Below, in pieces: positions 15,124 to 54,290 of a stretch of DNA of 64,000 nucleotides. Location: positions 124,001-188,000 of the forward strand of contig NZ_FOQT01000002.1 of NCBI RefSeq assembly GCF_900113805.1, given 5' to 3'. Position numbers and translations under genes: made by a program. Positions within the stretch are counted from its first letter, which is position 1, and each line of letters starts with the position of its first letter. The notes beneath the pieces were generated by a model. It was given only the letters and a program-made list of their open reading frames with translations, was not told the origin of the DNA and did no database searches. The DNA comes from Halpernia frigidisoli. Lineage in GTDB: Bacteria > Bacteroidota > Bacteroidia > Flavobacteriales > Weeksellaceae.

Positions 15124-15225
15124 CAGGAGCTGATTCCTGCTGTCCGCTGTATCTTTTTTTATTGAAAAATTTTATAATTAGAAAAATTTTAGATAAAAAA
15201 AGGATGCCACTTCCATCAGGGCTAT
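15124..15225 (-). repeat. Intergenic structured element A (candidate ncRNA/repeat family)
   Basis: Read on the minus strand, the element begins with AGCCCTGATGGAAGTGG and a CATCC-T-run. An AT-rich hairpin arm follows, then an A-run and AGATACAGCGGACAGCAGG, closing with AATCAGCTCCT. CTGAT near the start can pair with ATCAG near the end, and the T-run pairs with the A-run to form an inner hairpin. It lies between ahcY and its strong terminator at 15248. Element B at 53176-53258 shares the same layout. I recall similar GGAAGTGG...ACAGCGGACAGC sequences between genes in many flavobacteria, but could not search for them here. Confidence 0.55.
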
Positions 15226-15247
15226 GAAAAGTCAGTTTACATAAAAA

Positions 15248-15271
15248 AATCCGTCTCAAATGAGGCGGATT
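15248..15271 (+). terminator. Terminator downstream of ahcY
   Basis: Stem AATCCGTCTC / GAGGCGGATT (one G-U type pair) with loop AAAT, A-run before it and eight or more T after it. Confidence 0.8.
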
Positions 15272-15312
15272 TTTTTTGTTCAGATATCAGTTAAATGTTG
15301 TAATTTCAAAAC

Positions 15313-16647
15313 ATGAAACCATTGTTAAACTTTATTTTGATCACTTTTTGTTCTTTCCTTTCGGGGCAGAATGAAGGCTTCAAATTGAGTGCGACAAATA
15401 AAATGGTTATTCCTTTTCAACTCATCAATAATTTGATATTTATTCCAGTTAGTATCAATGGCGTTGAGCTCACTTTCCTTTTAGATTCAGGAGTTCAGGA
15501 GAGTATTTTATTTAGTTTAGAAAATAAAGATGTCACTTTTAAAAATACAGAAAAAATCAAATTTTCAGGTTTGGGAGGAAATGTTGATTTATCTGGTTTA
15601 AAATCAATCAATAATGATTTTAAGATCGGCAAAAATTTTGAAGACAGATCACACACCATTTTTATAATTTTAAATGAAGAATTTAATTTTTCTTCCCACG
15701 TCGGCATTCCAGTGAACGGCATCATTGGCTATAATTTTTTTAAAAATGATCCGGTAGAAATTGATTACATCAAAAAGAAAATAACAATCTATAGCAACAA
15801 TAAAGCTTTTCAGAAAAGAGCAAAAAAGTATAAAAGTTTTGACATTTCTTTGGAAGATAAAAAACCATACATCAATGTTGATGTAAAATTAATCAGTGAA
15901 GCAAAAAATTCTAAAATGCTTTTAGATCTCGGAAACAGCGATGCGATCTGGCTTTTTCCAAAAATGATTGAAAATTTTTCTTACAATCGTCCAAATATTC
16001 AGGATTATCTGGGTCGCGGTTTTAATGGCGATATTTACGGCAAACGAAGCAGAATAAAAGAAATGTCAATAGGTGATTTTTCTTTTACAAAACCTTTAAC
16101 GGCGATGCCAGACGAATTGTCATTCCAACATTTAAAGATGGTTAAAAACAGAGTGGGTTCTGTCGGAAGCGATATTTTACGGCGGTTTAATGTTATTTTT
16201 GATTATCCCAATCAAAAAATTTATCTCAAAAAAAATAGAAATTTTGACGAGCCATTCCTCTTTAATATGAGTGGGCTGGATATTAAAAATGATGGCATGG
16301 AATGGGACAGCGATCTGGTTCGCGTAGAGACAAAAGAAGCAAATACAAATAACGGCAATGAAAAAATATACAGCGCCGTGAACGAGTTTCAGTATAAATT
16401 TACCTTAAAACCAATATATTCTGTAGCTGCTAGCAGAGAAAATTCACCAGGTTATAATTCGGGTATCAGAAAAGATGATGAAATTGTAAAAATTAATAAT
16501 AAAAAAGCCTCAACATTTACGCTTCAGCAAATTCTCGATCTGCTAAAATCTTCTGAAGGAAAGCAAATAAACATAGAAGTTCGGCGTAAATTTCAGATTT
16601 TAAGTTTTAAATTTACACTTGAGGATCCAATTCCCTACGAAAATTAA
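15313..16647 (+). CDS. Exported retropepsin-like aspartyl protease with PDZ domain
   Basis: A 444-residue protein with a signal peptide ending near FLSGQN. Two halves resemble pepsin/retropepsin lobes. The first has LLDSG with Asp58; the second has LLDLG with Asp205. A PDZ domain occupies about residues 350-430, with YSVAASRENSPGYNSGIRKDDEIVKINNK as the carboxylate-binding loop region. The second lobe has Leu where Thr or Ser is usual (D-L-G), so catalysis may rest on the first lobe or be altered. It would act in the periplasm or at the surface. It is followed 2 bases later by the next gene, which suggests cotranscription. Confidence 0.8.
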   Translation: MKPLLNFILITFCSFLSGQNEGFKLSATNKMVIPFQLINNLIFIPVSINGVELTFLLDSGVQESILFSLENKDVTFKNTEKIKFSGLGGNVDLSGLKSINNDFKIGKNFEDRSHTIFIILNEEFNFSSHVGIPVNGIIGYNFFKNDPVEIDYIKKKITIYSNNKAFQKRAKKYKSFDISLEDKKPYINVDVKLISEAKNSKMLLDLGNSDAIWLFPKMIENFSYNRPNIQDYLGRGFNGDIYGKRSRIKEMSIGDFSFTKPLTAMPDELSFQHLKMVKNRVGSVGSDILRRFNVIFDYPNQKIYLKKNRNFDEPFLFNMSGLDIKNDGMEWDSDLVRVETKEANTNNGNEKIYSAVNEFQYKFTLKPIYSVAASRENSPGYNSGIRKDDEIVKINNKKASTFTLQQILDLLKSSEGKQINIEVRRKFQILSFKFTLEDPIPYEN

Positions 16648-52084: not shown

Positions 52085-53107
52085 TTAATATTCAAATAAA
52101 ATACTTCCCCAGGTAAAACCGCTGCCAAAAGCTGATAAACAAATAAGATCACCACGTTTTACTTTGCCCTGTTCCACTGCTTCGCTTAAAGCCAAAGGAA
52201 TTGAAGCCGCGGTTGTATTGCCGTATTTTTGAATATTATTAAATACTTTTTCTTCAGGTAAATTTAATTTTTTCTGTACAAACTGCGCAATTCTCAAATT
52301 TGCCTGATGTGGAATAAACATATCAAGATCTTCAAGGGTTTTTCCGGCTTTATCTAAAACTTCCATTATAGTTTCAGGAAAACGGGTTACAGCATGTTTA
52401 AAAACAAAATTACCGTTCATTATCGGATAAATTTCTTCCGGCGTTACAACTCCGGGTTCTAAAATAGTTCGGTCACTCCAGCCAAATTTGGAACCTGGAA
52501 ATTTTGTACAAAGTTCTTCAGCGTATTTTCCCTCGGAATGTAAATTTGTTGCTAAAATTCCCTGTCTTTTTTCATCGTTTGAGGCTGATAAAATTACAGC
52601 TCCGGCGCCATCACCAAAAATAACGGAAACACCTCGTCCGGCATCAGAAAAATCCAAACCAAAAGAATGAACTTCTGCACCGATCACTAAAATATTTTTA
52701 TACTCTCCTGATTTAATGAAAGCATTTGCTACACTCATCGCATAAACAAATCCTGAACATTGATTTCTAACATCCAATGCACCGATCGTGTCACAACCCA
52801 ACATTTCCTGAACTAAAACTCCACAACCTGGAAAAAAATAATCCGGACTTAATGTGGCGAAAATGATAAAATCAAGATCTTTTGCGCTTAAATCTGCATT
52901 TTTAAGAGCACTTTCTGAAGCTTTAAAACCTAAAAATGCAGTGGTTTCTTCGGCATCATTTCTATTTTTTCGGTGTCGTCTTTCTTTAATTCCTGTTCTT
53001 TCGGTGATCCACTCATCATTTGTGGTCATCAATTTTGAAAGATCATCATTTGTGACAATATTTTCCGGTACATAATGTCCGATACCGGCAATTATACTTT
53101 TAGGCAT
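52085..53107 (-). CDS. fabH: 3-oxoacyl-ACP synthase III (KAS III)
   Basis: A 340-residue enzyme that condenses an acyl-CoA primer with malonyl-ACP to start fatty-acid synthesis. The catalytic triad is Cys117 (RNQCSGF), His267 (IPHQAN) and Asn297 (YGNTTA). I start at ATG 53107 (MPKSIIAGIGHYVPEN, the usual KAS III opening). A longer in-frame reading to 53215 would take in intergenic element B and is not supported. The gene stands apart from other fatty-acid genes. Flavobacteria make many branched fatty acids and often have more than one fabH, so this may be one of several. Confidence 0.93.
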   Translation of the reverse strand: MPKSIIAGIGHYVPENIVTNDDLSKLMTTNDEWITERTGIKERRHRKNRNDAEETTAFLGFKASESALKNADLSAKDLDFIIFATLSPDYFFPGCGVLVQEMLGCDTIGALDVRNQCSGFVYAMSVANAFIKSGEYKNILVIGAEVHSFGLDFSDAGRGVSVIFGDGAGAVILSASNDEKRQGILATNLHSEGKYAEELCTKFPGSKFGWSDRTILEPGVVTPEEIYPIMNGNFVFKHAVTRFPETIMEVLDKAGKTLEDLDMFIPHQANLRIAQFVQKKLNLPEEKVFNNIQKYGNTTAASIPLALSEAVEQGKVKRGDLICLSAFGSGFTWGSILFEY

Positions 53108-53175
53108 TTTTTTTATTTGTGTAAAAATAAGAAAATCTAAATTAATTATGACAAACATAATTGATTGCGACCAAC

Positions 53176-53258
53176 TGCAGCCCGACCTGAGTGGAGCTCT
53201 TTTTGTGAGGCGCAAAGCCGAACAAAAAAGCAGGAACGGAGGGCGGAAAAAGCTGCCA
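53176..53258 (+). repeat. Intergenic structured element B (candidate ncRNA/repeat family)
   Basis: The element opens with GCAGCCCGACCTGAGTGGAG, then CTCTTTTTGT, a GGC-GCAAA-GCC hairpin and ACAAAAAAGCAGG. It ends with AACGGAGGGCGG and AAAAAGCTGCC. The outer GCAGC (53177-53181) pairs with GCTGC (53252-53256), and the T-run pairs with the A-run to extend the inner hairpin. It is much richer in GC than its surroundings. The order of parts matches element A at 15124-15225: AGCCC-GA, a GAGTGG or GAAGTGG block, T-run hairpin A-run, a GC-G block, and AGCT near the end. Confidence 0.6.
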
Positions 53259-53390
53259 TAAAAAATAAAAAACGACTTTTCTAGGAAATCAAATGCTTCC
53301 GAAATTATATAATCAACAGGTTTCGGGTAAAGTAATTAATTGTGAAAAAAATATCCTTTTAAAAAGAGATTTTTACATTAAATTTGTGAA

Positions 53391-54290
53391 ATGGCGATAG
53401 AAATTTTCCTTAAAAATGAACACTGTGAGTGGATTGACGTAGTTGCACCAACTGCAGAAGACCTAAAATTTATCCACGAGCGTTATTCCATAAATCATTT
53501 GCTTTTAGAAGATACAATTGATGCCAACCACCTTCCTAAATTTGAAAAAGTAGATGAAGTCATGTTTTATCTGATGCGCGAAAATACGGAACTTGAGCGC
53601 ACGAACCTGAGCAGCATTAGTGATGTAAGTACAAAACTTGGAGTTTTCATTTTTGAAAAAACCATTATCACAATTCACCGCATGAAAAACCGAAGCATTC
53701 AGGAAACAAAGGTAGAAGCCGAAAAAAAGGCTGAAGCAATTCGAAAAGAGGATATTGCACTTCTTTTAGGAATGAAAGTGCTTAAATCTTATGACAGCGA
53801 AGGCAGCCATCTACTGGATGTTTTAGATAAAATGGAAGACCAGATCTTTCTTAAAAATGCACACGACAGCAACCAGATCCGGAGACTTTACAAAATAAAA
53901 AGAAAGGCTGGACTTAATACCAGAATTTTAAATATTTCTACTTCGTGGGTTGAAAAATTTAGTTTACTTAATTTGATTGATTCTGAAATCGTTGATTTAA
54001 AGGACAAACATAAAGACGTAATTGCAGATTTTGACCATTTAAATTCGCAGGTTACCAATTTAATTTCCATGTTCATCGCGCTTTCCGATCAAAAAGCGAA
54101 TCAGGTTATGAAACTTTTGGCCATATTTTCGGTTTATTTTTTACCGATCACATTTATCGCCGGCGTTTATGGAATGAACTTCGATTTTATGCCGGAACTG
54201 CATTTAAAACATGGTTATTTTTACGTCTTAGGTTTAATGTTGACAATTGAGATCACCATTTTTATTTATATGCGTAGAAAAAAATGGTAG
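53391..54290 (+). CDS. corA: CorA-family magnesium transporter
   Basis: A 299-residue divalent-cation channel. It has a cytoplasmic N-terminal funnel domain and a long stalk helix (about 150-235). The two C-terminal membrane helices (about 240-258 and 270-292) are joined by the signature Y-G-M-N (GMN 261-263), then FDFMPEL, where MPEL stands for the usual loop. The basic end MRRKKW fits the family. A TAAATTTG -7-like box (53379-53386) lies 4 bases before the ATG. No close neighbour is on the same strand. Confidence 0.93.
   Translation: MAIEIFLKNEHCEWIDVVAPTAEDLKFIHERYSINHLLLEDTIDANHLPKFEKVDEVMFYLMRENTELERTNLSSISDVSTKLGVFIFEKTIITIHRMKNRSIQETKVEAEKKAEAIRKEDIALLLGMKVLKSYDSEGSHLLDVLDKMEDQIFLKNAHDSNQIRRLYKIKRKAGLNTRILNISTSWVEKFSLLNLIDSEIVDLKDKHKDVIADFDHLNSQVTNLISMFIALSDQKANQVMKLLAIFSVYFLPITFIAGVYGMNFDFMPELHLKHGYFYVLGLMLTIEITIFIYMRRKKW

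Follow-up and report, generated by a model that had tools for sequence, protein, structure and literature searches.

The intergenic element between fabH and corA (element B) belongs to Rfam family RF01705, known as Flavo-1, whose copies are shown in one species pair to be held in place by purifying selection on both arms. The near-unchanged arms found at 20 orthologous sites are new, and constitute a direct sign that the copies function where they stand. Element B is quite possibly a selectively maintained single-stranded DNA hairpin, bound by a putative structure-specific chromosomal protein; we infer both the protein binding and DNA, rather than RNA, as the folded molecule. While the RF01705 family is already known, the B subfamily, largely missed by Rfam, and the constraint on the arms in place are newly described.

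Flavo-1 dates from 2010, when it was proposed as a structured RNA candidate. The parts of the literature examined give no role for it, and Rfam places RF01705 among the small RNA genes. The entries y, n, n used by Weinberg et al. reportedly stand for RNA yes, cis-regulatory no and switch no. Those are the entries given for Flavo-1, in Bacteroidetes, in the 2010 table (PMC2864571), and a passage of a further paper places Flavo-1 among the abundant sRNA families (PMC9029176). In titles and the beginnings of abstracts from the open-licence literature (Flavo-1, RF01705, Flavobacteria intergenic repeats, Chryseobacterium REP), the features described below are unreported.

Element B and the Flavo-1 family

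The features of the window, the whole stretch of 64,000 nucleotides analysed, that bear on element B are the following.

15129-15227, minus strand: element A, an ordinary Flavo-1 element scoring 68.6 bits, over the cut-off (RF01705 match)
about 15249-15277: canonical intrinsic terminator beyond element A, in the direction of the upstream gene (terminator scan)
52085-53107, minus strand: fabH (ACP_syn_III), with its ATG start at 53107 (open reading frame and domain match)
53177-53256, plus strand: element B, a Flavo-1-like hairpin of the B subfamily (matches to RF01705 and to the B model R1)
53177-53181, plus strand: 5' strand of the outer stem, GCAGC, partner of GCTGC at 53252-53256 (sequence; the pairs covary)
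53182-53199, plus strand: left arm CCG-A-CC-TGA-GT-GGA-GCT-C, short helices separated by internal loops of the GA type (sequence, fold, covariation)
53200-53228, plus strand: T-run/A-run arm and apex, with TTTTTGT, a GA/GA mismatch, GGC-GCAAA-GCC and ACAAAAA (sequence, fold)
53200-53206, plus strand: TTTTTGT (sequence)
53209-53219, plus strand: inner GGC-GCAAA-GCC (sequence)
53222-53228, plus strand: ACAAAAA (sequence)
53229-53246, plus strand: right arm AGC-AGGA-AC-GGA-GG-G-CGG (sequence, fold, covariation)
53252-53256, plus strand: 3' strand of the outer stem, GCTGC (sequence, covariation)
53379-53386, plus strand: TAAATTTG, which fits the box TAnnTTTG (sequence)
53391-54290, plus strand: corA (PF01544), divergent partner of fabH (open reading frame and domain match)

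From the outside in, element B begins with the GCAGC/GCTGC stem and its bulge of 5 nt, followed by CCG/CGG and CC/GG, which are separated by an A·G mismatch; a TGA/GGA loop then leads to GT/AC and a GGA/AGGA loop to GCT/AGC, after which come TTTTTGT/ACAAAAA, a GA/GA step and GGC-GCAAA-GCC. All the blocks named in the initial annotation (GCAGC/GCTGC ends, both arms, TTTTTGT..ACAAAAA and the inner hairpin) are present, and the GC-richness that it had noted is confirmed (55%, against 22.5% and 27.5% in the nearest element-free windows, 53080-53159 and 53280-53359). The plus strand folds as one long hairpin of -31.2 kcal/mol (z -2.0, equalled by 7 of 200 shuffles); the complement strand gives a z of -0.7 (54 of 200). 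The false N-terminal extension of fabH is also real: the longest frame begins within the element, with the TTG at 53215. Translation from the ATG at 53107 yields a protein with the ACP_syn_III domains.

Upstream of corA, TAAATTTG fits TAnnTTTG, the Bacteroidetes -7 box. As this box ends 4 nt before corA and element B, between the divergent genes, lies 122 nt upstream of it, the element is unlikely to be within the corA leader. A RAGATH-30 match at 53121-53174 was rejected as due to chance (17.6 bits against a cut-off of 59.5).

Using cmscan, element B matches RF01705 at 53175-53253 on the plus strand, over the full length of the model (positions 1-76), and has its full-length hairpin consensus with GA-type internal loops, at a score of 33.4 bits that is below the gathering score of 42 bits. 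The dedicated B model, R1, built from 26 copies including this one, gives 95.1 bits at 53175-53259 on the plus strand. Element B was therefore rightly described as a second, GC-richer member of the intergenic family of element A, both of which match RF01705. Membership of one family accounts for the common block order of the two elements, whose arm sequences differ.

Within the window alone, the motif GAGTGGAGCTC has one exact match, and with at most one mismatch it is not beyond chance, as 20 of 100 shuffles also have at least one match. The whole genome analysed here (3.02 Mb) holds 18 exact places; when at most one mismatch is allowed, visual inspection identifies 27 of the best 30 places as B elements, the exceptions being L021, L027 and L029. 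The R1 search yielded at least 84 B-type copies genome-wide at 48.9 bits or more, the next score being 39.1; this is a lower bound, with 150 of 3827 candidates scored. Recurrence, without which the notion of an intergenic family would fall, is thereby established. RF01705 itself finds at least 117 places above its cut-off (150 of 1056 candidates scored), and the two lists, which overlap by eye at 23 places, together make up at least about 178 distinct places. By eye, 23 of the at least 84 B-type copies exceed the RF01705 cut-off, and among 20 loci picked by the GAGTGGAGCTC motif a single B element reaches it. This shows that much of the B subfamily in this genome is missed by the Rfam cut-off.

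Across B-type copies, the outer stem covaries, the internal loops are of GA/GNA type and the apices vary. The copies alternate between GCAGC/GCTGC and GCGCC/GGCGC in the outer stem, between CC/GG and CT/AG, between an A·G mismatch and G·A, and between GCTC/GAGC and either ACTC/GAGT or AATC/GATT. They have the same strand, the full-length architecture, the CCG-A-NN-NGA-NN-GGA left arm and the matching right arm of the Rfam family, and differ from it by the covarying outer stem, by helices richer in G+C and by being mostly below the cut-off or unlisted. Because some copies combine a B outer part with an A inner part (L036:2004-2082 and L056:1874-1952), A and B belong to one family. The A-type copies of this genome (L031-L060, contig C3) share a 3' hairpin GCAR..YTGC ending in TTGCTTCTAAAA and an A-rich 5' flank, and the full A element may thus be about 150 nt long, beyond the Rfam model.

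Folding strand and constraint at orthologous sites

Covariation is pronounced in both types. The 34 distinct B rows have 99.7% of their 669 cells paired, with 71 double-sided and 2 one-sided changes; their covariation score of 0.328 exceeds that of shuffles (0.130) and of slid controls (at most 0.066). In the outer stem, pairs 5-174 and 6-173 of alignment A4 have changed on both sides in 10 of the 34 rows. The 39 A rows give 98.8% of 659 cells paired (139 double-sided and 9 one-sided changes). Both alignments, whose fitting to the models favours pairing, beat 500 of 500 shuffles for cells paired and covariation score, as well as every slid control. Mispairs over the 1328 cells comprise 12 G·T on the modelled strand, 2 A·C and 8 GG, TT or AA. 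The excess of G·T over A·C identifies the strand modelled by Rfam as the folding strand: the structure is under selection, and one strand folds. A symmetric cruciform is discarded on the same ratio of 12 to 2 (about 0.013, two-sided), which means that a single strand matters.

Of 70 inner regions, 16 contain a GNA triloop hairpin, where simple shuffles give 2.2, the copies being related rather than independent; 7 contain a GNRA loop, where shuffles give 1.2. GCGAAGC is a classic stable DNA hairpin, weaker as RNA. Short hairpins of the GNA kind are described as extraordinarily stable in DNA or RNA (PMC10527192). G·T wobbles make up 12 of 1328 cells (0.9%) in the elements, against 24 of 256 (9.4%) in 12 tRNAs taken from the fetched sequence. 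As the acceptor and T stems of these tRNAs show 53 double-sided and 7 one-sided changes, not clearly unlike the A type (139 to 9), the argument for DNA rests on the wobble share and this small tRNA control.

Constraint in place was measured by comparing 400 kb of one genome, G271, with 400 kb of a close relative, G265, using element models trained on another genus. For 22 of the 23 G271 elements, an element is present at the orthologous place in G265. The 26 G265 elements divide into 22 with a G271 counterpart, two without and two with a flank that was not found. Over 20 orthologous pairs, 2 of 850 arm positions differ, compared with 90 of 635 in the loop centre and 7 of 240 among the loop bases adjoining the arms. 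Of the ten-base stretches flanking the arms, the left one shows 30 differences in 198 positions and the right one 8 in 200. In the 15 pairs with a flank divergence under 15%, there are 2 changes in 638 arm positions, 60 in 663 loop positions and 149 in 2322 flank positions (arms vs flanks, p about 6e-14). Apices are swapped in 3 of the 20 pairs (loop differences of 25/50 at X88094, 20/43 at X213220 and 12/35 at X95097). The contrast is independent of these, since it persists after their removal (arms 1/724, loops 40/747, flanks 255/2627).

The arms are quiet in every context sampled: 1 change in 422 positions for copies opposed to codirectional genes (10 pairs), 0 in 130 for those in the same direction (3 pairs), 1 in 168 between convergent genes (4 pairs) and 0 in 130 between divergent genes (3 pairs). 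Flank divergence in these groups is 10 to 14%, with one divergent pair at only 2/160. Three of the 23 G271 elements were dropped: the counterpart of X308472 is interrupted by an insert, the arms of X35748 were not segmented, and X105493 has been replaced (arms 13/42; the arm total including it is 15/892). Copies decayed in both species escape this test, and only X308472 of G271 has no intact counterpart. Arms that are nearly unchanged in place suggest a functional component, not junk in decay. Copying between elements does occur, with apices swapped and arms intact; alone, it cannot explain fixed arms where the orthologous apex has diverged. In nine A-type G271/G265 pairs, the 3' hairpin and 5' flank extension of the A element is under no strong constraint.

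Element sites turn over, both between genera, as seen from presence or absence in the gaps of this genome and G271, and among the elements of the close relatives G265 and G271. In 16 gaps of contig C3, neither genome has an element in 13, both have one in 2, and only G271 has one in 1. None of 5 further comparable loci of this genome has a model match in G271, where the counterpart of L011 holds a diverged hairpin. At polymorphic sites, no exact insertion borders could be read. One G271 gap (X2:12847-13105, L182), whose counterpart here is a B element, contains a diverged hairpin, GGAGCTCTTTTTCTG..CAGAAAAAAGAGACTGCCCG, missed by both models and possibly a third class.

Genomic context and competing explanations

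Over 1.9 Mb of three genomes, 86 of 87 elements lie between genes when frames under 160 aa mostly covering an element are discarded; without this rule, 3 of 30 elements lie inside short frames (86, 133 and 94 aa). The single in-gene element is at the start of a 1433-aa frame, which may be a start miscall. Gap types, observed vs expected, are 13 vs 21.8 divergent, 11 vs 9.0 convergent and 62 vs 55.2 codirectional. As to a preference for 3' ends or divergent genes, the check suggested in the initial annotation, every gap type is occupied, divergent ones below expectation, and in this genome the copies opposed to codirectional genes lie close to the preceding stop codon. In codirectional gaps, the folding strand is opposed to the genes 42:20 in the three genomes and 23:8 at further loci of this genome (treated by the same rule for short frames; 2 of these 45 loci were excluded, one of them lying at an edge and the other inside a frame). 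The total of 65:28 (p 1.6e-4) indicates that the folding strand is mostly not the mRNA strand. A count of 20 codirectional copies shows no orientation bias (9 same, 11 opposed); it becomes visible with these 93 copies (28 vs 65). The 35 opposed codirectional copies of this genome lie at a median distance of 32 nt from the preceding stop and 92 nt from the following start, 30 of them nearer the stop, and the 17 same-direction copies are placed symmetrically. No clear replication-strand bias appears in the C3 stretch (14 plus and 16 minus copies, with mostly negative skew) or in three G271 stretches, where orientations are mixed, and the C3 skew gives no sign of clustering near the origin or terminus. 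Gene neighbours in the 322-402 kb region are presumably ordinary, judging from their first 60 residues.

For a single-stranded DNA hairpin, the duplex would be opened by replication, repair or supercoiling, the strand with the GA/GNA loops would then fold, and the folded hairpin would be bound by a putative structure-specific chromosomal protein. DNA is likelier than RNA because the folding strand is mostly antisense, is also found between divergent promoters and rarely contains wobbles; wobble share and context argue for this indirectly. The wider proposal that each genome carries well over 100 such sites, selected in any orientation and context and read by this putative protein for chromosome organisation, replication or repair, is more doubtful. 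If it were true, the Rfam label 'small RNA' would be wrong. The question of Flavo-1 function becomes a search for the partner binding a defined hairpin. The comparison of the two relatives argues against a role in mRNA and against a decaying parasite; the orientation bias and the closeness to stop codons could, for their part, reflect a role in 3' untranslated regions.

That the family is a non-coding RNA, as in Rfam, with the GA strand transcribed from its own promoter or as antisense, is rather unlikely. Covariation and GNA/GA loops confined to one strand, and the tolerance of G·T above A·C, are what such an RNA would display, and several 5' transcribed regions of F. psychrophilum coincide with Flavo-1 matches (PMC9723704). 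Against this, no TAnnTTTG-like promoter stands at a fixed upstream place in 34 B and 39 A flanks (by eye), the orientation is mostly opposed to genes, the arms are constrained in every context sampled, and wobbles are ten times rarer than in the 12 tRNAs. Many Flavo-1 matches also fall outside the newly defined transcribed regions, others being sense or antisense to them, which is why the passages of that transcriptome study dealing with Flavo-1 draw no function for it (PMC9723704). Such a result fits a single-stranded DNA hairpin.

A 3'-end device, acting in the mRNA as the complement of the folding strand to stabilise the transcript at its 3' end or to terminate it in place of an intrinsic terminator, seems improbable. 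The family resembles intrinsic terminators in forming a stable hairpin often shortly after a stop codon, as the median of 32 nt and the 30 of 35 opposed copies nearer the stop illustrate. Of 20 gaps with opposed B copies, 2 have a canonical terminator before the element and none has one within the 150 nt that follow it, compared with 29 of 81 control gaps, and 2 of 5 orthologous G271 gaps (L004, L016) have, by eye, a canonical terminator at the place of the element. Since canonical terminators are rarer near opposed B copies, a 3'-end role may apply to some of them. The B hairpin is nevertheless unlike intrinsic terminators: its complement has no regular U-run after the hairpin (by eye), none of the 20 opposed B elements with 20 nt added has a U-run directly after the hairpin in the direction of the upstream gene, and copies occur in divergent gaps too. 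A simple terminator scan of opposed A elements is mixed, with 6 of 15 passing, and a separate terminator exists in 6 of 15 opposed A gaps. Moreover, the folding strand runs with the genes in 28 of the 93 codirectional copies, and for copies that sit, like element B, between divergent promoters, the arms are unchanged in all 3 pairs compared.

A REP/REPIN-like miniature mobile element, copied as single-stranded DNA and conserved through recent copying or conversion, has a similarly small chance of being the answer. The family shares with REP/REPIN sequences an intergenic, multicopy nature, inverted arms around a variable spacer and compensatory changes (PMC3116915, PMC2817692). Presence varies between genera and for 2 of 26 G265 elements with respect to the close relative, apices are swapped while arms stay intact, and the element is reversed upstream of corA in G267 and G273. 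No associated Y1 transposase was found, in contrast to REP/REPIN systems with their cognate RAYT, and B copies lack the GTAG/GTGG head given for REP elements (PMC2817692). Mobilisation by a RAYT is rejected: the sole Y1_Tnp match in the genome lies in a broken frame with its own, different palindrome, and four genomes at the scored maximum of Flavo-1 matches (G096, G064, G143, G153) have no Y1 match. The sharing of 22 of 23 G271 sites with G265, and arms constrained at orthologous sites even where the apex has diverged, also speak against this reading. The transposase remnant (L061:1100-2070, contig C7) is a frame-shifted REP-associated tyrosine transposase ringed by several copies of the palindrome GCTGCCGCACGATTGCATCGTGTGGTCA and its variants.

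Distribution, the corA site and neighbouring repeats

RF01705 matches at E 0.001 or better occur in 58 of 196 genomes of the order, and B model matches at 1e-8 in 31 of 196, with at most 22 candidates scored per genome. Of these 31, 21 belong to four genera of the family of the window and 10 to one other genus, with 1 to 3 B-model matches each among the candidates scored. A blastn search of plasmid and phage collections with one B and one A query gave no match, a weak result given the low sensitivity of this method for a short-armed hairpin.

In G196, the sole further genome of the genus searched, the fabH/corA site is without element, and a weak G196 match (L117:3779, 18.1 bits) was excluded. 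In a related genus (g4), corA was located in 22 of 23 genomes; the 360 nt upstream, inspected by eye, contain an element in the same orientation in 16 genomes, in the opposite orientation in 2 (G267 and G273) and none in 4. Of these 16, three carry about 50 nt inserted into the left arm, and in one the right arm is damaged. The insert, TATTTTTTATTT..GAATCGATGAACCA..CGTTAGGT, splits the left arm in L081, L126 and L130, and the right arm of a copy in the genome analysed here (L020:1469-1635) holds a similar one. The inner part at the corA site is of A type in G271, G265 and G269 and of B type in G261, with similar flanks. The outer stem is GCAAC/GTTGC instead of GCAGC/GCTGC in G264, G110 and G262; as the apices also differ there from those of other copies, replacement by another copy is possible. 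Compensation in place at the outer stems of X95097 and of the corA site was discounted for the same reason.

Other elements share some of the gaps. A SAM riboswitch (L009:1218-1323, minus strand, 78.3 bits) lies in the same gap as a B element. Two inverted A-type elements (L106:15290-15380 and 15489-15603) stand about 110 nt apart between convergent genes. Downstream of three A-type elements (L036, L097, L107), the palindrome GATTGCTTCGTTCCTCGCAATGAC represents another repeat family sharing the same gaps.
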